From: a virus
Length of the DNA stretch: 38,945 bases
Virus record (IMG/VR): IMGVR_UViG_3300044799_000023
Location: 1-38,945 of that record
Direction: 5' to 3' (one strand)
Translations under genes and position numbers: made by a program
The notes under the pieces: generated by a model
Told to the model about the DNA's origin: nothing
Databases searched by the model: none
What the model saw: the letters and a program-made list of their open reading frames with translations, nothing else
Part shown: positions 20,986 to 38,945 of the stretch, piece by piece
Numbering within the stretch: the first letter of the stretch is position 1
Layout: each line of letters starts with the position of its first letter

Positions 20986-21008
20986 GAAAAACCCCGATAA
21001 AATCGGGG
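20986..21008 (-). terminator. Second of two tandem terminators
   Basis: On the minus strand CCCCGAT, TTT, ATCGGGG is followed by TTTTTC. It lies 45 bases upstream of the holin-like gene and backs up the terminator at 21011-21033. Confidence 0.85.
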
Positions 21009-21010
21009 CA

Positions 21011-21033
21011 ACAAAAAACTCGCCGAAGCGAGT
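21011..21033 (-). terminator. First tandem terminator, UUCG tetraloop
   Basis: ACTCGC, TTCG, GCGAGT on the minus strand is followed by TTTTTG. The UUCG loop is very stable. A further hairpin (TGGGGC/GCCCCA, 21035-21053) precedes it. Together they close the early transcription unit ending with the gene at 21088. Confidence 0.85.
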
Positions 21034-21087
21034 CTGGGGCATAATTCGCCCCATTGAAAATCAAGTTATCACACACGGAAATATTTG

Positions 21088-21522
21088 TCAAGCAGCCACT
21101 TTGTTATATTTTCTATAACGTTTCACTGCCCGCCAGACATTGAAATCAGTCTCTTTACGACTCCATCCAGAGATATAATAAAGAACTTCCCTTATATCAT
21201 AGTCAAGGTCAAATATGGTTTCCCTGTTAATACATTGCTCGGCCAATAACCTTCCTCTCCAGCCTGTTTGGGTGAGCCGCTTATTTACTTCACCTATGGC
21301 GAGAACCGCCCTTACAAATCCTGCGTCAGTCCGTGCTTTCTTGCCCCGAATACTAGGGTCGGCCATTATCTCAGGAGTCGGCCAATCTCCTCCTTGTAGT
21401 ATCTTGGCATATTTTAACAGCCAGAAGTTTTGTTGAGCACACCAGCAAATATCCGAATAGCTATACCACTCTTTCCCCGGGCATCCTCTCCAATCTCTAC
21501 AGTCTCGGCAGTCACCAGTCAT
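21088..21522 (-). CDS. Cysteine-rich protein at the end of the early region
   Basis: Product is 144 residues, ATG at 21522, overlapping the previous stop. The first 30 residues contain a cysteine cluster (MTGDCRDCRDWRGCPGKEWY, then DICWC) that probably binds zinc. The middle is helical (DAGFVRAVLAIGEVNKRL), and the last 50 residues (DLDYDIREVLYYISGWSRKE) could include a DNA-binding helix pair. As the last gene before tandem terminators and the late block it is a reasonable candidate for a late-gene regulator or antiterminator, but no named family is recognised. Confidence 0.65.
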   Translation of the reverse strand: MTGDCRDCRDWRGCPGKEWYSYSDICWCAQQNFWLLKYAKILQGGDWPTPEIMADPSIRGKKARTDAGFVRAVLAIGEVNKRLTQTGWRGRLLAEQCINRETIFDLDYDIREVLYYISGWSRKETDFNVWRAVKRYRKYNKVAA

Positions 21523-23564: not shown

Positions 23565-23708
23565 TCAATAGTCATACCAATCTCTCGGCATAGCATCTCC
23601 ACGCTTTCTATCAATCCAGTGGAAAAATCGCCAAAGTAACTTTCTTTCAAGCGGGAGAATAAACATTCCCACAGTTATCCCAAGTAAGATAATTATAATG
23701 ATTTCCAC
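23565..23708 (-). CDS. 47-residue single-span membrane protein
   Basis: GTG at 23708 has an AAAGGAGGGAAA SD. The first 20 residues are a hydrophobic helix (EIIIIILLGITVGMFILP) and the rest is basic (ERKLLWRFFHWIDRKRGDAM). The reading frame, SD and spacing before ninG support translation. Function is unknown. Confidence 0.6.
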   Translation of the reverse strand: MEIIIIILLGITVGMFILPLERKLLWRFFHWIDRKRGDAMPRDWYDY

Positions 23709-25384: not shown

Positions 25385-27280
25385 TCATAGCTCCATTGGA
25401 ATAGATATTTTAGATACTTCCTTGATTGCCAACTTGCAATAGTCAGGATTCAGGTCAATGCCTATACATTTACGGCCTAATCTCTTGGCGACACTTAACG
25501 CCTTTCCAGAGCCACAGAATGGGTCAAGAACTACACCAGGCTCAAATCCAGCATTACAGCCACAATCGGTATAGCCTAATTCCTTAGCCTCACTCATACT
25601 TTCTAATATGCGCCTTTTAGTATCAGATGGGCTTTGTGCTAACCCCTCTTCATAATTAGCCGTGTCTTGCCCTTTGTATGCCCCTTGCTTATCACAGCCC
25701 GCTATCCTCATGGCATCTGTAATCTGTTTATCTATTACTTGATAAACCTTCTCCCTCTCCTTCCCACACTTCTTACAGATATGAGTAGGACAGCCACTTA
25801 ATATCGGTGTCTCGCATAACTTCTCAGGGAAGGTGGCAAAGTTCTTGATTCCGTGCCATTGGGCAGTCGGTTCTGTGTTTATTTCCCAGACATCACGCTT
25901 GTTGCGGCCTAACTCCCCATACCCACTTCGTAAACCTGCACCAAGCGGAGACAGAAAAGCATCACCATATCCCTCATTCCGCTTATCTCTCAACGAGCCT
26001 GGCTCTGTGGTATGTGGCTCAAACTGCTGCTCAAAGAAGTAATCTTCGCAACCTGAATGGCGGTTAAGATTTGGCTCTGGCAGATTGGCAAACTCTACTT
26101 CGTGTTGGTTTAATGCCTTGCACAGCTCCCATAGCCTTATCTTCTCTTGATATTCAGCGTCAGATAGAGGGATAGGACCATCTCTTGACCCTTTCGGACT
26201 TCCCCTATGGTAATTGGTTTTCTGTAGGGCTACACAGACTTTGGCTTGTTCTCTCTTCCCAATCAAATAAGGATATACTTCCCCAATTATTGATAATGCG
26301 TCATTATGCGTTATTTCCCATCTATACATAGCTAGATTAGTGCTAGCACCAGCGTCTTTCACCCCTCCTATGCCCGTGATTGCTACACATCTGTCAAGTA
26401 TCGCCTTACAGGAATTATTGATGGTTATATAAGCCCCAAAAGTATCGTGTGGTCTATTAACCACAGATTTCCTTATACCGATAGTCCCTTCTGCGTCTAT
26501 CATTGCAGCCAACCATGCCCTATCATCGTTCGCCAATGACTCAGGCAACCATCGTTTTATATCATTGCTGCGTTCCTTTGATTTCACAAAGAAAAATAGA
26601 TGTTCCCAAGTTCCTGTAAACCTATCCTTGACGCTTTCAGGCATGGGATTTGACTTATACCAGACAATATCGTTTCTAAGTATCCAGCCATGTTCCACCA
26701 TCGCTAGGGCAAAGCGGGAAGGTATTAAACAGAGGGATTTGGCCTGCCCCCCCTTTGGTCTGAAATTTGCATATTCTCCCGCCGATTCTCCTGCTATCTT
26801 TTGGGGCGCATTAAAAGTTCCTTGTGCTGTTGACCAATAACTATCATCTATATTCACCCAGCAAGTGCCTGTCTTTTTCAGGACCCGCTTAACCTCATCG
26901 AAGATTTGTACCAAGTGCGAGATGTAGAGTTCGATGGTGGGTTCTAAGCCTAATTCCCCTCGCCATGCGTGGCATTTGAGGCAGAAATTGCCTTGTTCTG
27001 CCTTGCCAAAGTGGTCATAATTGGCACTAGGGCTGTCTGCACTTACGGTTCGTGTCCCTGTTGACCAACCCTTATGTATTCTTGTTTGGCTTTTATCAGA
27101 TACAAATTCATGTTCGCAATGATTCTCCCCCCAAATCTGAGGCTCTGTCTTGTAGGTTCGGAGTCCCCAGTACGGGGGTGAAGTCATAACGCAATCCACA
27201 CTTTCAGCCGATATTCCCTTGAGAACATCTAAGGCGTGTCCTTGATAGATGGTTACATTAGGCTCTTGATATACTGTCAT
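25385..27280 (-). CDS. DNA methyltransferase with embedded LAGLIDADG endonuclease domain
   Basis: Product is 631 residues. The methyltransferase half has catalytic motif IV TSPPYW at 33-38 and, at the C-terminus, the SAM-binding motif I DPFCGSGKA at 586-594, an order that marks a beta-class N4-cytosine/N6-adenine enzyme. Conserved KSNPMPESVKDRFTGTWEHL at 209-228 and YFFEQQF at 414-420 flank an insertion from about 236 to 411. The insert contains WLAAMIDAEG (256-265), a LAGLIDADG motif, followed by TIGIRKSVVNRP and IGKREQAKV as in homing endonucleases. Intein splicing blocks were not seen. Two cysteine pairs (C100/C103, C502/C505) may bind zinc. It protects phage DNA or regulates replication; whether the nuclease is active is unknown. 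Confidence 0.9.
   Translation of the reverse strand: MTVYQEPNVTIYQGHALDVLKGISAESVDCVMTSPPYWGLRTYKTEPQIWGENHCEHEFVSDKSQTRIHKGWSTGTRTVSADSPSANYDHFGKAEQGNFCLKCHAWRGELGLEPTIELYISHLVQIFDEVKRVLKKTGTCWVNIDDSYWSTAQGTFNAPQKIAGESAGEYANFRPKGGQAKSLCLIPSRFALAMVEHGWILRNDIVWYKSNPMPESVKDRFTGTWEHLFFFVKSKERSNDIKRWLPESLANDDRAWLAAMIDAEGTIGIRKSVVNRPHDTFGAYITINNSCKAILDRCVAITGIGGVKDAGASTNLAMYRWEITHNDALSIIGEVYPYLIGKREQAKVCVALQKTNYHRGSPKGSRDGPIPLSDAEYQEKIRLWELCKALNQHEVEFANLPEPNLNRHSGCEDYFFEQQFEPHTTEPGSLRDKRNEGYGDAFLSPLGAGLRSGYGELGRNKRDVWEINTEPTAQWHGIKNFATFPEKLCETPILSGCPTHICKKCGKEREKVYQVIDKQITDAMRIAGCDKQGAYKGQDTANYEEGLAQSPSDTKRRILESMSEAKELGYTDCGCNAGFEPGVVLDPFCGSGKALSVAKRLGRKCIGIDLNPDYCKLAIKEVSKISIPMEL
26048..26575 (-). 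other. In-frame LAGLIDADG insertion within the methyltransferase
   Basis: These codons (about residues 236-411) interrupt the methyltransferase between FFFVKSK and DYFFEQQF. In ordinary relatives of this enzyme the two segments are expected to be nearly adjacent. The block has one LAGLIDADG motif at 26486-26515, so it would work as a dimer. No start or stop codon separates it from the host protein. Confidence 0.75.
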
Positions 27281-32789: not shown

Positions 32790-33005
32790 TCAATAAATCA
32801 TTTCCCTAATAGGTCTTACCGTCAAATGTACTGTTGCTTGCAACCACGCGCTAGGGTCTCTCTTATAGGAAGGAGACTCTACTTTAGGAAGATAGGGTAA
32901 ACGCCCGCACAAGCTGCACCTTTGATGCACCCCACAGCATGTGAGCTTTCGCCTCTTCCTGAGCAATTTCTCAATAGCCTTTAACCCTTCAGGTAGCGTT
33001 TTCAT
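32790..33005 (-). CDS. Small protein with zinc-binding cysteines, coupled to integrase
   Basis: Product is 71 residues; ATG at 33005 overlaps the integrase stop as ATGA. A basic helix (KAIEKLLRKRRKLTCCG) leads to C23, C24, C30 and C33 (HQRCSLCG), a compact zinc-knuckle pattern. Translational coupling with integrase makes a directionality factor or regulator worth considering, but this is speculation. Confidence 0.55.
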   Translation of the reverse strand: MKTLPEGLKAIEKLLRKRRKLTCCGVHQRCSLCGRLPYLPKVESPSYKRDPSAWLQATVHLTVRPIREMIY

Positions 33006-33832
33006 CTCTGAAACACCCTCCCTGGCGTATGTTCTTTATGTATCTGAATCACATCTTCAGTTAATAAAGGTGCATAATAATCTGCCGTTGTCTTGATACT
33101 TTTGTGTCCCAATATGAGACTCAGGCTTTGCATATCCCCACCATCCTTCAGGTGGAATCTCCCGAAAGAGCGCCTGAGAGTTTGCGGACCAAACTGCCTT
33201 CCCGAATAACCCACCATTGAGAGATATTTCTTGACGACTTTATAAAAGCCTGTGGACAATAAGGGTTTATTTGTTATTCCATAAAAGACACAGTCATCAT
33301 TATGTATCGGTAAGGATAAGAGTAAATCCCTGGTAACTTCTGAAATAGGAGTTACCCGGTATCCGGTCTTTCCGTGAATGATAATTCTGTCCTCAAGAAT
33401 ATCCTTTCGCTTTAGATTGACAGCCTCGCCCTTCCGAATAGCCGTGTCAATGAACAGTGCTAGAATTGCCTTATCTCTTGCTGGCGCTTTCTCCAAGAAC
33501 ACGGATAATAGGTTTAATTCGGTATCGGAGATTGTGGGCATGATTTGTTTGGGAACTCTAGGGCGAGTAACCGATGTCATAAAATTAGGTATTTTGTACC
33601 GTCTCTCAGCATAATTCCCTAGAGCGTGAAAGGTACGATAGTGCGAATCGGCATTGTGTACCCCCTTGACATCCGCAAGAAACTTCTGTACTATCTCTGG
33701 CTTGGGCGGGAACTTTGGAGATAACTGGATAAGTCGCCTAGTATGACAGTCGTAGCCCTCTAGGGTCTTAGGAGAGAGCCTTCGGAGCTTACAGTCTGCC
33801 ATGAAACTAGCGACCACCTCCTGGGTCTTCAT
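33002..33832 (-). CDS. int: Tyrosine recombinase (phage integrase)
   Basis: Product is 276 residues, ATG at 33832 with AAAGGAGG at 8-9 bases. Residues 1-85 form a SAM-like core-binding domain (RLSPKTLEGYDCHTRRL). Catalytic residues are R133 (AIRKGE), K155 (GKTGYR), R220 in QTLRRSF, H243 (LGHKS) and nucleophile Y252. The box II histidine (usual HxxR) is replaced by Q217. No arm-binding domain is visible at the N-terminus, so the enzyme may use a simple att site. It integrates and excises phage DNA at the tRNA-Lys attachment site lying just upstream. Confidence 0.9.
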   Translation of the reverse strand: MKTQEVVASFMADCKLRRLSPKTLEGYDCHTRRLIQLSPKFPPKPEIVQKFLADVKGVHNADSHYRTFHALGNYAERRYKIPNFMTSVTRPRVPKQIMPTISDTELNLLSVFLEKAPARDKAILALFIDTAIRKGEAVNLKRKDILEDRIIIHGKTGYRVTPISEVTRDLLLSLPIHNDDCVFYGITNKPLLSTGFYKVVKKYLSMVGYSGRQFGPQTLRRSFGRFHLKDGGDMQSLSLILGHKSIKTTADYYAPLLTEDVIQIHKEHTPGRVFQR

Positions 33833-33889: not shown

Positions 33890-33928
33890 ATAGCGAAAAG
33901 GTACTGGACGAGAAATCTAGGCAGGCAA

Positions 33929-33975
33929 TCTGACTTTTAATCAGGTTGTCGTGGGTTCGAATCCCACACGGCTCA
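33929..33975 (+). other. Candidate attP: 3' part of tRNA-Lys(TTT)
   Basis: The sequence has a normal anticodon arm (TCTGA-CTTTTAA-TCAGG, anticodon TTT at 33936-33938), a T arm (GTGGG-TTCGAAT-CCCAC, 33951-33967), a 3' acceptor strand ACGGCTC and a discriminator A. No 5' acceptor strand or D arm precedes it, so it is not a gene. Partial tRNA ends beside an integrase are the usual phage attachment site, because integration rebuilds the host tRNA. No CCA is encoded. Confidence 0.85.
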
Positions 33976-34146
33976 CTTTTCATGTTGCTCCACCAATACC
34001 TTTTCTTTATGTTTTGCTCGCCAGATAACCATTGAGACAGTGCCAATCTTCATTTTGAACATCTTAGCAATGGCTACATGTCGCCAGCCCTTATTAGCAA
34101 GTTCCAATATCTTTTCATTCCGTTCCGTCTTAGTTCTGTTAGCCAT
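33973..34146 (-). CDS. 57-residue helix-turn-helix regulator
   Basis: ATG at 34146 (MANRTKTERNEKILELANKG) with AAAGGTAAGAA upstream. The frame gives a three-helix DNA-binding unit: ERNEKILELANKG, HVAIAKMF, then GTVSMVIWRAKHK as recognition helix, like sigma-r4 or Xre-type small HTH. TGA at 33975-33973 lies in the attP acceptor stem, so after integration the gene would read toward the intact host tRNA. A strong promoter lies at 34164-34192. No CI-type repressor is present, so this is the best candidate for an immunity or excision regulator. Confidence 0.75.
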   Translation of the reverse strand: MANRTKTERNEKILELANKGWRHVAIAKMFKMKIGTVSMVIWRAKHKEKVLVEQHEK

Positions 34147-34163
34147 TTCTTACCTTTGCTCAC

Positions 34164-34192
34164 ATTTTATAACACCCCCCTTTTCTTGTCAA
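34164..34192 (-). promoter_or_regulatory. Promoter for the HTH gene
   Basis: Minus strand TTGACA at 34192-34187, a 17-base spacer, and TAAAAT at 34169-34164. It matches the sigma70 consensus at 11 of 12 positions, leaving a leader of about ten bases before the ATG at 34146. Confidence 0.8.
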
Positions 34193-34219
34193 TAGCCATT
34201 TTAGCTATGATTTGGCTAT
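34192..34219. promoter_or_regulatory. Inverted repeat in the divergent control region
   Basis: ATAGCCA (34192-34198) and TGGCTAT (34213-34219) form a 7-bp inverted repeat with a 14-base spacer. It abuts the -35 box of the HTH promoter and lies about 30 bases before the plus-strand -35 box, a suitable place for a repressor that controls both. Confidence 0.6.
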
Positions 34220-34249
34220 AAAAACCACCATTTGGGGGAAATTTTATGC

Positions 34250-34277
34250 TTGACAATTTTTAGAGGGGTGCTAGACT
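34250..34277 (+). promoter_or_regulatory. Promoter for the plus-strand membrane gene
   Basis: TTGACA at 34250-34255, a 16-base spacer and TAGACT at 34272-34277. The predicted start of transcription, about seven bases downstream, falls at 34284-34285, at the ATG itself, so the mRNA may be leaderless. Confidence 0.7.
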
Positions 34278-34284
34278 TGGGTAG

Positions 34285-34617
34285 ATGAATAGAGGCGGAG
34301 ACACTAAGGTTTCAATTGCGTTTATAGTCGTATCTGTGATTGTTAACTTTGTTAATTATGCGCTGTTCTATAATGTGATACACCCATCATGGTTCTTGAT
34401 TGAATTTTCTGCTCTTGCGATGTTTATTGCCGGGACACTCGGTATTACAATCTTCCCTGCGGGTGTAGCAGCTATCATTGCAGCCTTTTTTATGATACCA
34501 AAGAAGCACAAACACCGATATCTGTATTACTTTGGCATTGTATTCTTAATCCTTTCCTTACTCTCTGTAGTGGTATCCGTGTCAAACGCATGGTATGCAC
34601 AACAATTCTTACCTTAA
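34285..34617 (+). CDS. Small membrane protein, only plus-strand gene; lysogeny candidate
   Basis: Product is 110 residues, ATG at 34285. Three transmembrane segments are visible: about 9-29 (VSIAFIVVSVIVNFVNYALF), 38-70 (FSALAMFIAGTLGITIFPAG, then AAIIAAFFMI) and 78-102 (LYYFGIVFLILSLLSVVVSV). No SD precedes the start, consistent with a leaderless transcript from the promoter at 34250. Isolated on the opposite strand beside the integration cassette, it is a natural candidate for a lysogenic conversion or superinfection-exclusion protein. That function is inferred from location only. Confidence 0.7.
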   Translation: MNRGGDTKVSIAFIVVSVIVNFVNYALFYNVIHPSWFLIEFSALAMFIAGTLGITIFPAGVAAIIAAFFMIPKKHKHRYLYYFGIVFLILSLLSVVVSVSNAWYAQQFLP

Positions 34618-34635
34618 GAGGTTTCAGCAGTTACT

Positions 34636-34668
34636 AAATAAAAAAGATTCCCTGGCTTTTCACCAGGG
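34636..34668 (-). terminator. Terminator of the late operon
   Basis: On the minus strand CCCTGG, TGAAAAG, CCAGGG is followed by AATCTTTTTTATTT. It ends the transcript from the tail genes about 100 bases past the last gene and faces the plus-strand gene ending at 34617. Confidence 0.85.
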
Positions 34669-34771
34669 TAAAAGATGATTAAAAATCTAGGGGGTAAAAT
34701 AACTTGAGGGTATAAAGATGTGGGAAAGTCCCATCAATGCCCGAATTTTAGCCTCTCAGGGCTATACCAGC

Positions 34772-34957
34772 TTATTGGGGCTTGTCTCCGTCCCACCGAT
34801 TCAGCATCCGTGCCTCGCCATTAAGCCGTAACGCTTCCTCGATTAGTTGCTGCCTTCGCTGTGCTAGTGCCTGTTCTTGAGCGATTACCTCATTCAGACC
34901 TTTGACGACTGTTTCCTGGCGCTCTTTCAGGTCTGCCTTTTCTTTCTGAATGTCCAT
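34772..34957 (-). CDS. Small coiled-coil protein at the end of the late operon
   Basis: Product is 61 residues, ATG at 34957 with TAAGGAGGCAA. One long coiled coil (EKADLKERQETVVKGLNEVI, then AQEQALAQRRQQLIEEALRL). It follows a three-span membrane protein directly. The pair could be a lysis or membrane-linked complex. No known family. Confidence 0.65.
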   Translation of the reverse strand: MDIQKEKADLKERQETVVKGLNEVIAQEQALAQRRQQLIEEALRLNGEARMLNRWDGDKPQ

Positions 34958-35334: not shown

Positions 35335-37722
35335 TTAAGCCCAGCCTGCATCTCGGTTAGCGTGCCACCAGGCTCCTGAATGATAAACATTCCAGTAGCC
35401 CGATGAACTATTATAAACTGCCATCCCCTCTGACGGAGAAGATGGAGCAGAAGTTAATCTTGGTAAGGTCAAAAAATAAGCTGAATCCATTTTAATACCA
35501 CCACTAACAGCATGAAGGTCAATCGCCCCCCCAGCCATAGGTGTTATAGTTATTCCATCATAACCGGTAATTCTCAATCCTGAAGCACTAGATGAACTTC
35601 CATAAATTGACCCCCTGATTGTACTGTCAGAATAGAACTTCAAGTATTCACCATAGATTCCAATTCCAGCAGAACTAAGTTTGACAGCACCGGCACCGGC
35701 ATAAATTGCGCCATCACTCCCGACATAGCATTGAATAGTCCCAGTCTCTGAGTTAGCTCGTGTGGTCAAGGCTTGGTTTCTGCCCCAGATGTTAATACCT
35801 ACTCCTGCTGCTATGGACACGCCTGCTGAGGAGTCTCCGTCAAGATACCACTTGCCCGAATACTTGCCAGAGTAATAGTTGGCTAGTGTCAGCGTAATCC
35901 TTCCCGAGCTTATCTCTGTGGCCTTTACCTTTTTATAGGTTGTCCCATCTCCCAGGTCATCCATATCCTCTGGCTTGTTAGTCCAGTCTGTTTTCTGGGA
36001 GTCTGTAACTGTGCGATAACTGGATGATTGAGTTACAGTCGAGAGTAGAATATGCCCTGCTGAAATGTCTGTGGCTTTCACGAGCCCATAAGTGCCCACT
36101 ACTACTTGGTCTAATATCACTAGCCCATCAGCACTCAAAGCAGCACTCTTTACTCGGTGATAAACAGAACCATCAGCAATCGTATCAAGACTAACTTGTG
36201 TCCAATCACCCGCTACATATGCTCCAGTCGCCCGTGCCGTTGTACATCGCTTCAGGACTGTGCCATCTGTCCACATATCCCCCAAGTCGTAGGGTGTCGT
36301 GGGTGTCGCCGTAAAGTTTCGCCTCTTCGTGTTCGGGTCATAGCCAGCCTTGTAGATGACATGCTCATCAAGTTGCAACACTCCCGCGTCAAGGTGCATT
36401 GATTTGATTCGTGCATAGACTTCGCCATCGGGAAGATTGTCTAAAGTATCTCCAATCTTGGAGAGGTCAATGTTTCCCTCCGGGTCAATCCACACCATAT
36501 CTAAGCTGTCGGCTTGAATATGCTCGACATAGAGATTCCCAACAGAAAGGCGCTCAAAGTATTGCCCGGTGTAAGTCTCCAACTCCTTGAGCATCTTCTG
36601 ATATTTAAGATACTCAAACCAATTCCCGAACCCGAAGGTCATTTTCCATGTGTCTCCCCCGAACCTTCTATGGACGTAACCTAGATTACCAGTTCGAGTA
36701 TCCCCCTGTCTGGAATCGGTTACTTTGTCATAGTCAAACACTTCGGCAGCACAATTTAATGGCACTTCCGCTTGACCTCTAGAACAACCCATCTCGGCTT
36801 TAGCTATCAGCGCTTCAGCGATGTCCTCAGCCTGGTCGTTGCTTTCTAGCCTCATCTGAACAAACTTAGTTTTCTTAACATTGGCTGGTAGGGAATCATA
36901 ACCCTCAACCGCAGCCACACCCAAATACTGGGGGGTGTCGTCCTTTCTCGATATGACGTAGATTTTATTAGGAAAAACGAGACTGTTTTTATAAGCCTTA
37001 TGGAAAAAGGTATGAGCCCCTCTTTCGAGGCTATATTCGGAGTCGTATGAAGTTCCCGATGTAACGGGTTTCAATATGTGAACCTTGCCGTCATCTTCGA
37101 ATCTGGGCACATTTCCCGTGAAGTCGAGGACTTGCCTGAAAGCAGCTAACCTAGACCCGCCAGTATAAATTCGGAATCCATCTTTGGGCTTGTAACTGTC
37201 CGCCAGGGTATCATACCCATCATCCCAAACAACATCATATTTCTTGCAATGGTTGAAACAGGCTAACATCGTTACCCCGGTGTCGCCGGCTATTTCTCGA
37301 ATCAGAGTCTTGACTGGCTTAGTATCATCCGATTCGGGTATATAGTTCGCACTGGCCTCATCTTGAGTCATTAAATTGGGGATGCCCTCAAGAAAAAGAG
37401 TGCAGGTCAGTGGCTTATTTTGGTCAGAGTCAAACTGCTGGTCTATGACAGAGAGAGCCGCCGTTCCTGAATACTCACTCCCGAACCCGTAGGAGATAAC
37501 TGCATCAAATCCTTTTAAGTCTAAATCGTCGAGTTCATGGTCGGCGTTGTCAAGGACAATCTCAGCCGTCTGTGAATACATCTCCTCATCATGCTTCGAG
37601 GGGAGTATCCTCTTGTTGTCATAGGTGTAGCTCGTTGCACCCTTCGTTAAGACAATCTTATAAACAGGATTCTTTGCACCGGCCTTCTGCGCTGCTTCAA
37701 GAGTAGAACTTAATATCCTCAT
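35335..37722 (-). CDS. Tail hub/tip protein with DG-Y-VK repeats
   Basis: Product is 795 residues, ATG at 37722, overlapping the previous gene. Residues 1-390 are a mixed beta region (YKIVLTKGATSYTYDNKRIL, DNADHELDDLDLKGFDAVIS) like tail hub or baseplate cores. Then three repeats with the pattern D-x-x-x-DG-x-x-Y-x-x-V/I-K, near LPDGEVYARIKS, IADGSVYHRVKS and LGDGTTYKKVKA, are followed by a glycine- and serine-rich C-terminus with YNSSSGYWNVYHSGAWWHAN, similar to chaperone-like or carbohydrate-binding ends. It is the longest tail protein and probably forms the distal structure contacting the cell. No lytic domain seen. Confidence 0.75.
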   Translation of the reverse strand: MRILSSTLEAAQKAGAKNPVYKIVLTKGATSYTYDNKRILPSKHDEEMYSQTAEIVLDNADHELDDLDLKGFDAVISYGFGSEYSGTAALSVIDQQFDSDQNKPLTCTLFLEGIPNLMTQDEASANYIPESDDTKPVKTLIREIAGDTGVTMLACFNHCKKYDVVWDDGYDTLADSYKPKDGFRIYTGGSRLAAFRQVLDFTGNVPRFEDDGKVHILKPVTSGTSYDSEYSLERGAHTFFHKAYKNSLVFPNKIYVISRKDDTPQYLGVAAVEGYDSLPANVKKTKFVQMRLESNDQAEDIAEALIAKAEMGCSRGQAEVPLNCAAEVFDYDKVTDSRQGDTRTGNLGYVHRRFGGDTWKMTFGFGNWFEYLKYQKMLKELETYTGQYFERLSVGNLYVEHIQADSLDMVWIDPEGNIDLSKIGDTLDNLPDGEVYARIKSMHLDAGVLQLDEHVIYKAGYDPNTKRRNFTATPTTPYDLGDMWTDGTVLKRCTTARATGAYVAGDWTQVSLDTIADGSVYHRVKSAALSADGLVILDQVVVGTYGLVKATDISAGHILLSTVTQSSSYRTVTDSQKTDWTNKPEDMDDLGDGTTYKKVKATEISSGRITLTLANYYSGKYSGKWYLDGDSSAGVSIAAGVGINIWGRNQALTTRANSETGTIQCYVGSDGAIYAGAGAVKLSSAGIGIYGEYLKFYSDSTIRGSIYGSSSSASGLRITGYDGITITPMAGGAIDLHAVSGGIKMDSAYFLTLPRLTSAPSSPSEGMAVYNSSSGYWNVYHSGAWWHANRDAGWA

Positions 37723-38018
37723 TTCAGCTCGAATGAACCTTCCGTAATCACGTATTTAGCCTCATCGCCTGTTCCGTCCTGGCTCTTACAAGAATAACGC
37801 CACCAACCTTTAACATCATCGTCCTCAGAATTGTAATAATAGACGAATTTGCCGTCATCATCTTCCGTCATGGCCGAAGCATTTACTTTGACTGTTCCCT
37901 CGGGGTCGGTCAAAGTCACCTTAACTCCGTTGTCAGGACTCGTATAAGTTCCCTCCCAATCCTTGATAAAAGCCCAGATTCCTACCGTTTCGCCAGCTTG
38001 GAATGAGTTTATATTCAT
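37719..38018 (-). CDS. Small Ig-like beta-domain tail protein
   Basis: Product is 99 residues, ATG at 38018. It has a single strand-rich domain: AGETVGIWAFIKDWEGTYTS, GVKVTLTDPEGTVKV, then GKFVYYYNSEDDDVKGWWRY. Alternating strands with a DPEG turn suggest an Ig- or FnIII-like adhesion fold. It joins the repeat protein and the hub by overlapping stops and starts. Confidence 0.7.
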   Translation of the reverse strand: MNINSFQAGETVGIWAFIKDWEGTYTSPDNGVKVTLTDPEGTVKVNASAMTEDDDGKFVYYYNSEDDDVKGWWRYSCKSQDGTGDEAKYVITEGSFELK

Positions 38019-38383
38019 GGCTTCACCTCTCTTGTCTGTACCGATAAGTTATGATACGGCTTGGTCTCTACCACCATATCTAAATAAGGTCTCTTAAAGA
38101 GCCTCATCTTCAATCTTCTACCCACTTGGACTAAGCGTGCTATTAGAGTTCCTATAAAGGTAAGAGTTCCACCTAGAACCTTAGATGTAGTTTTCTTGAC
38201 TACGCCCTGAAAAGCCAAAGTTCCAGATGTGTTCTTACTAATCTTTTTAGCAACTGAGCCTGCAAAACTGAGAACCCCGCCTACTGCCTTCTGTATTATC
38301 TCTTCTATGGTCTCAAGCAGTATTGCACCGCCATCCTCTTTTAAGAGAACCCCGCCATCTTCTTTAAGTAGTTTATAAGACAT
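38015..38383 (-). CDS. Tail repeat module protein, paralogue of the large repeat protein's C-terminus
   Basis: Product is 122 residues, ATG at 38383, directly after the previous stop (TAAATG). Residues 1-30 (LLKEDGGVLLKEDGGAILLE) are a short repeat common in tail fibre N-termini. Residues 35-80 hold three GVLSFAG/GTLAFQG/GTLTFIG units. The end, MRLFKRPYLDMVVETKPYHN, matches the C-terminus of the protein at 945-3005. It looks like a duplicated, shorter copy of the same module, placed beside the variable tail gene. Confidence 0.75.
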   Translation of the reverse strand: MSYKLLKEDGGVLLKEDGGAILLETIEEIIQKAVGGVLSFAGSVAKKISKNTSGTLAFQGVVKKTTSKVLGGTLTFIGTLIARLVQVGRRLKMRLFKRPYLDMVVETKPYHNLSVQTREVKP

Positions 38384-38945
38384 TTATGCCGAGTCAATCC
38401 TTCCCAGGTATTTTACCCTACTAGAAAAAGTTGATGCACCAGAAGCCACAATTTTCATTGTGATTCGCTGGCTTACAACAGGAACGATGTAGTAAATATA
38501 AGTCCATTTAGAAGCTGCCACGGTAACAAGACTTACCTCTTTACTAGCTGCGTAAGTTTCATACGGATGCCATTGAGCATAGTAAGTGCCTGATGCTGTA
38601 TCTAAAAGCTGAGATGCAAAAGCGACTCCCACACAAGTGCTTGCCACAAGGCTTGAAATATCTATGTCAAAGTATCCTGAAGTAGTGTTGACTTGGCTTT
38701 GAATAGTTATATCATCATTGTCTGCCCATGAGTCCGATGATGACTCGGTAGTTATATTATTCTTGGCTGTATCAATGGCTGTAATTACACGAGCTGTTGC
38801 CCTTGTCGTGTTCCATAATAAAACTTTGCCAGCCAGAGCTGTATAGGTAATAGATGCAAGAAATCCCTCTCCACTGTCACCATCATAAGGGACATTGGTT
38901 GTTGTTAGCCCTCCCGAACCGCCAGCATTTATCTTGGCCGTAAAG
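38384..38945 (-). CDS. Tail/receptor-binding-type virion protein, C-terminal part (second fragment)
   Basis: This frame is open from the right edge to TAA at 38384-38386. Its first about 117 codons repeat those of the left fragment (1-352), and its last 69 (SGTYYAQWHPYETYAASKEV, then SRVKYLGRIDS) supply the missing C-terminus. In the joined gene the protein would be 381 residues. The end is beta-rich with an aromatic face (YAQWHPYETYAA). It is followed immediately by the repeat module gene. Confidence 0.75.
   Translation of the reverse strand, partial: FTAKINAGGSGGLTTTNVPYDGDSGEGFLASITYTALAGKVLLWNTTRATARVITAIDTAKNNITTESSSDSWADNDDITIQSQVNTTSGYFDIDISSLVASTCVGVAFASQLLDTASGTYYAQWHPYETYAASKEVSLVTVAASKWTYIYYIVPVVSQRITMKIVASGASTFSSRVKYLGRIDSA
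38594..38945. repeat. Right copy of terminal overlap repeat
   Basis: It is the partner of 1-352, with the same seven differences. Read as protein, five differences are silent and the other two turn an N-N-K triplet into K-N-N. The repeat ends exactly at the window edge. Confidence 0.85.

Follow-up and report, generated by a model that had tools for sequence, protein, structure and literature searches.

Genes and sites at the locus

The window, meaning the whole stretch of DNA that was analysed, was IMG/VR record IMGVR_UViG_3300044799_000023 (38,945 bases), and most genes in its ORF list were on the minus strand. Family searches pointed to a phage with an integrase, a Cas4-type exonuclease, a DNA methyltransferase and a DnaD-like helicase loader, and also matched NinG, terminase and a major head protein. 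The features of the locus were as follows:

33002..33832, minus strand: tyrosine integrase (Pfam PF00589, E 7e-18; PHROG integrase, E 7e-32)
33890..33915, no strand assigned: left inverted arm, candidate integrase arm site (20/26 complementary to 33985-34010)
33910..33975, plus strand: partial tRNA-Lys (anticodon TTT), probable attP core (Rfam tRNA, 25.6 bits, E 0.009)
33973..34146, minus strand: HTH protein of 57 aa with three predicted helices, LuxR/sigma-region-4-like, putative gene 1 of the early operon (ORF, homologues, model)
33985..34010, no strand assigned: right inverted arm (20/26), within the 3' end of the HTH gene
34164..34192, minus strand: predicted promoter of the HTH gene and early operon, TTGACA-17-TAAAAT (11/12 consensus; recurs in homologues)
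34192..34219, no strand assigned: ATAGCCA/TGGCTAT inverted repeat (arms 34192-34198 and 34213-34219), unsupported as functional
34201..34207, minus strand: TAGCTAA, kept in relatives, lying just 5' of the -35 (candidate site for an operator or activator)
34239..34245, no strand assigned: A/T element AAATTTT, candidate second element or UP-like tract
34250..34277, plus strand: predicted promoter TTGACA-16-TAGACT, with TG before the -10 (10/12)
34285..34617, plus strand: hydrophobic membrane protein of 110 aa, likely a moron (ORF; three hydropathy peaks)
34650..34668, minus strand: intrinsic terminator-like hairpin (7-bp stem, 5 GC pairs), then AATCTTTTTT

The preliminary description had placed here a 57-residue HTH ORF preceded by TTGACA-17-TAAAAT, and a divergent TTGACA-16-TAGACT promoter with a plus-strand ORF; the HTH ORF (34146..33973) was confirmed in the ORF list, and both promoters and the divergent ORF were present. 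The leftward early operon would comprise, in order, the HTH gene, integrase, small ORFs, exonuclease, methyltransferase, DnaD-like helicase loader and NinG, with the HTH protein as its lead gene product; it would be transcribed from a conserved promoter of the sigma-70 type, a short way beyond the terminator of the late operon. The hairpin at 34650..34668, which is terminator-like, may close late/tail transcription ahead of the early promoter; a similar terminator lay upstream of the HTH promoter in one relative (L004). Between 20.5 and 34.3 kb, 34164..34192 was the only minus-strand promoter-like site above 10/12. Lower-scoring minus-strand sites in the same interval were no commoner than in shuffles, and weaker promoters inside the early operon are possible.

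The HTH family and its promoter

The HTH gene stood alone in 11 phages, namely the window and ten IMG/VR relatives (one copy, in L016, truncated by the end of its contig), with 51-77% identity of the relatives to the window protein in an 11-row alignment. GenBank phages gave no match to the protein. In an eleventh relative (L036) the HTH was fused to an N-terminal HNH-like domain, again at the head of the early region. This fusion, together with a weak match of the HTH protein to an HNH PHROG, raises the reading that the short ORF is a remnant of an HNH/homing endonuclease, its DNA-binding tail left after loss of the nuclease part, and has no regulatory role. That reading was considered very doubtful, since the stand-alone relatives shared the same start, the same length class and their own conserved promoter, and were under strong purifying selection (dN/dS about 0.07-0.10 among three of the stand-alone homologues).

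The AlphaFold2 model of the HTH protein (11 sequences) had a pLDDT of 83 and helices at residues 4-18, 23-30 and 34-56. Foldseek against the PDB returned SigR region 4, DesR and NarL (probability ≤0.99, best E only 0.29), and the sequence matched NarL weakly (E 0.09), so that the LuxR/NarL/sigma-region-4 fold class is a lead suggested by the model and not an identification.

On the longer contigs, the genes that followed the HTH gene on the same strand were early genes, with an integrase in the window, L002, L004 and L007, and recombination/replication-type genes in L006, L013 and L018. Neither a tyrosine nor a serine integrase was found on many of the relatives' HTH-bearing contigs, several of them fragments (no integrase detected on L006, L018, L019, L020, L013 and the fusion contig L036), and the main role of the HTH protein thus need not concern lysogeny. 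The integrase of L003 (L003:6104-6397, plus strand) was cut to about its last 97 residues beside an intact HTH gene. A different HTH-like ORF of about 59 aa, with a TTGACA-17-TACAAT promoter and beside a different integrase, occupied the same slot in two further records (L041:1904-2104, minus strand; L045:4162-4362, plus strand); its relationship was only doubtful and it was set aside as a family member.

All 11 stand-alone HTH genes carried TTGACA 37-51 nt before the start codon, and this recurrence marks the HTH promoter as more than a chance match. The HTH/promoter pair may also serve as a marker for finding further such phages. In the 60-mers upstream of the -35, AGCTAA was present in 8/12 and TAGCTA in 6/12 (TAGCTA expected 0.24 by mononucleotide shuffling), and a count of 8 for the commonest 6-mer was never reached in 500 mononucleotide shuffles, although these counts overstate significance in that the relatives are not independent. 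The A/T 6-mers ATTTTC (9/12), AAAATT (8/12) and AAATTT (7/12) recurred partly from A/T-rich DNA. Elsewhere in the window TAGCTAW occurred four times, a count within chance expectation, and it is therefore a weak operator candidate. A search of viral_contigs with the TAGCTAA plus TTGACA pattern returned 69 stretches, mostly at unrelated genes, and no new HTH phage. A TGT-N7-TGT direct repeat spanning the -10 was dropped (permutation p 0.21 at variable positions); its upstream half may simply be an extended -10 element.

Conserved elements directly upstream of the -35 occupy an activator-binding position, and, with the LuxR/NarL- and sigma-4-like fold (weak E-values) and the retention of the HTH gene in phages with no detected integrase, are consistent with an HTH protein that activates or assists early transcription through these elements instead of repressing it. 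The promoter is, however, already near-consensus, and such promoters usually need repression and not activation; this reading was rated unlikely. It is plausible that the HTH protein is autoregulatory: it would most likely bind near its own promoter, with the TAGCTAA/A-T region as the best candidate target, and regulate it.

The divergent membrane gene and the inverted repeat

The start of the membrane gene lay 7 nt after its -10 in the window, which makes a leaderless or near-leaderless mRNA plausible. In relatives, the divergent genes started 13-15 nt after the promoter block and had Shine-Dalgarno-like leaders. The 110-aa protein had no relatives in IMG/VR or GenBank phages. Different membrane-anchored ORFs filled the divergent slot in L002, L003 and L013, and no divergent membrane gene was found in the slot in L004, L006, L007 and L018-L020. 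The promoter of the slot was of the TTGACATTTCGGGGAAAGGAATTAGAAT type in relatives, and a conserved TTGACATTTCGGGGAAAGGAATTAGAATAAT-like promoter would drive several unrelated small membrane genes in 7 records. The promoter block was at the same genome position in L002, L003, L009, L013, L041, L042 and L045. In L009/L010 the divergent promoter module was present and the available contigs showed no adjoining HTH gene.

Gene content across the relatives makes it most likely that the divergent gene is an independent moron. As in prophage morons, it was a small gene with its own promoter, located between late and early operons, and its product differed between relatives in the slot. It differed from them in that no plus-strand terminator-like site was found after the gene (34617-34772). 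The arrangement seen in the window was thus kept in related phages as regards the HTH gene and its promoter, but the divergent partner varied or was missing.

The ATAGCCA/TGGCTAT repeat described between the two promoters was present, but at chance level. Its full length was 7 bp within the 138-bp spacer that separates the two genes, and a perfect 7-bp inverted repeat arose in 15% (loop ≤20) or 21% (loop ≤30) of dinucleotide shuffles of the spacer. The arms were not conserved; in L006 the centre of the repeat was kept and both arms were lost. The repeat was accordingly rejected as an operator, and apart from it no palindromic operator common to both divergent promoters was found.

Among the window's proteins sent to PHROGs and Pfam, none was recognised as a CI-type repressor. 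The PHROGs queries were most of the gene-like ORFs, and the four left out (38384-38647, 38015-38383, 37719-38018 and 23565-23708) were still covered by a six-frame HTH_3 search, which returned nothing over the cut-off in the window plus ten related records. The 57-aa protein itself had no HTH_3 match (Pfam) and was the sole regulator-like protein recognised in the phage. The absence of a CI-like repressor noted in the preliminary description therefore holds at the sensitivity of PHROGs and Pfam together with the six-frame search.

Temperate phages are usually taken to require a dedicated repressor. The 57-aa protein could be that repressor, a minimal regulator acting on ATAGCCA/TGGCTAT and controlling both promoters, that of the early operon versus that of a lysogenic membrane gene. 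The absence of any other recognisable HTH regulator, the two divergent promoters, and a divergent membrane gene in the window, L002, L003 and L013 agree with such a role, but the chance-level repeat with its non-conserved arms, the missing or unrelated divergent gene of other phages and the promoter module of L009/L010, on contigs with no such HTH gene, make it improbable. The conserved HTH gene and promoter leading the early operon stood; the repeat as operator and the joint control of both promoters did not. The resemblance to the lambda-type CI/Cro (HTH_3) arrangement was limited to a small DNA-binding protein whose gene opens the early operon and is set among divergent promoters, whereas the window had one regulator outside HTH_3, a membrane-protein partner and no conserved palindromic operators.

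The probable attachment site and a proposed promoter uncoupling

Between the HTH gene and the co-directional integrase lay an attP-like tRNA-Lys fragment that was absent from the preliminary description. Its Rfam score was below gathering; the anticodon and T arms were intact and the 5' part was broken, and ARAGORN found no whole tRNA in the window. The 3' end of the fragment, TCA, supplied the HTH stop codon TGA (33973-33975). The score of the flanking 26-nt inverted arms (20/26) was reached by 0/200 shuffles and by 0/200 window places of the same geometry. The tRNA-Lys fragment with its inverted arms is probably attP.

In L004 and L007, tRNA-Lys(CTT)-like fragments were seen by eye between the HTH gene and int, and were not scored as tRNA by Rfam; their orientation relative to int was opposite to that of 33910-33975, though the integrases were 82-84% identical. 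No recognisable tRNA was found between the HTH gene and int in L002. The tRNA core of the window had no match in viral_contigs, and alignments of the HTH protein and integrase against genome_contigs revealed no integrated copy or host.

A small basic DNA-binding protein beside int and attP, with one inverted arm inside its gene, might be a recombination directionality factor (excisionase) for the adjoining integrase, acting on the attP arms. This role was considered very improbable: the HTH gene occurred on contigs with no detected integrase (L006, L018, L019, L020, L013, and L036 as the fusion; some of these contigs are fragments), was kept in L003, which retains only the C-terminal end of the integrase, and its product matched no excisionase family in Pfam or PHROGs.

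The HTH promoter, the HTH gene, attP and int followed one another on one strand, with the integrase on the other side of attP from the HTH gene, and no minus-strand terminator or promoter-like site was found between the HTH gene and int. In the circular phage genome, int and the early genes thus lie within reach of the HTH promoter, which would read through the HTH gene and attP into them. Integration would split this unit, leaving the HTH gene and its promoter at one prophage end and int with the early genes at the other.

In excised ICEKp1, int is transcribed from a promoter at the opposite end, across attP, and similar behaviour has been reported for ICEclc and ICEEc1 (PMC13023037). As with ICEKp1 and ICEclc (P3'end), an outward promoter across a tRNA attachment site faced int only in the circular form, the intervening stretch held no terminator, and no promoter was seen in the 5' flank of int. 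Unlike in these elements, the unit here belongs to a phage, the HTH gene would be transcribed first and the whole early operon, not int alone, lies downstream. The integration-dependent immunity of mycobacteriophage BPs relies on an attP inside the repressor gene, so that the protein is shortened on integration (PMC4557955). The window shares with BPs an attP that directly adjoins a regulator gene, whose context integration would alter. C-terminal switching of the BPs type was rejected here, as the attP core (33910-33975) touches only the stop codon (33973-33975) and the protein should be unchanged.

An even chance was given to the reading in which the HTH gene heads the early operon and regulates its own promoter, integration uncouples that promoter from int and the early genes in an ICEclc/ICEKp1-like manner, and the membrane gene is a moron standing beside it. 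From the prophage, the HTH protein would dampen an incoming phage. The HTH/promoter pair occurred also outside the attP-int topology, in relatives with no detected integrase, several of them fragments. If the uncoupling is real, this ICE-type behaviour would be extended to a phage early operon.

A stronger version, lysogeny without a repressor, would have integration at attP silence the early operon by removing its only strong promoter, while that promoter, now at the other prophage end, would still express the HTH protein to restrain incoming phages; this was judged unlikely. The uncultured phage group has integrases and an attP-like site and no recognisable CI-type repressor, and with the promoter-attP-operon layout the act of integration would be enough to cut off the early genes. 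If this holds, lysogeny without a repressor becomes directly testable.

Two further observations concerned other parts of the early region. The last early gene (21522..21088) had a TTGACA-17-TAACTT promoter at its 3' end, and directly after this came two terminators in tandem, ahead of the late genes, in a pR'-tR'-like layout (20991-21091, minus strand); the 144-aa product of the gene is a candidate late regulator. The DNA methyltransferase (25385-27280, minus strand) contained an in-frame insertion matching an HNH endonuclease family, in which a LAGLIDADG-like motif was seen by eye.
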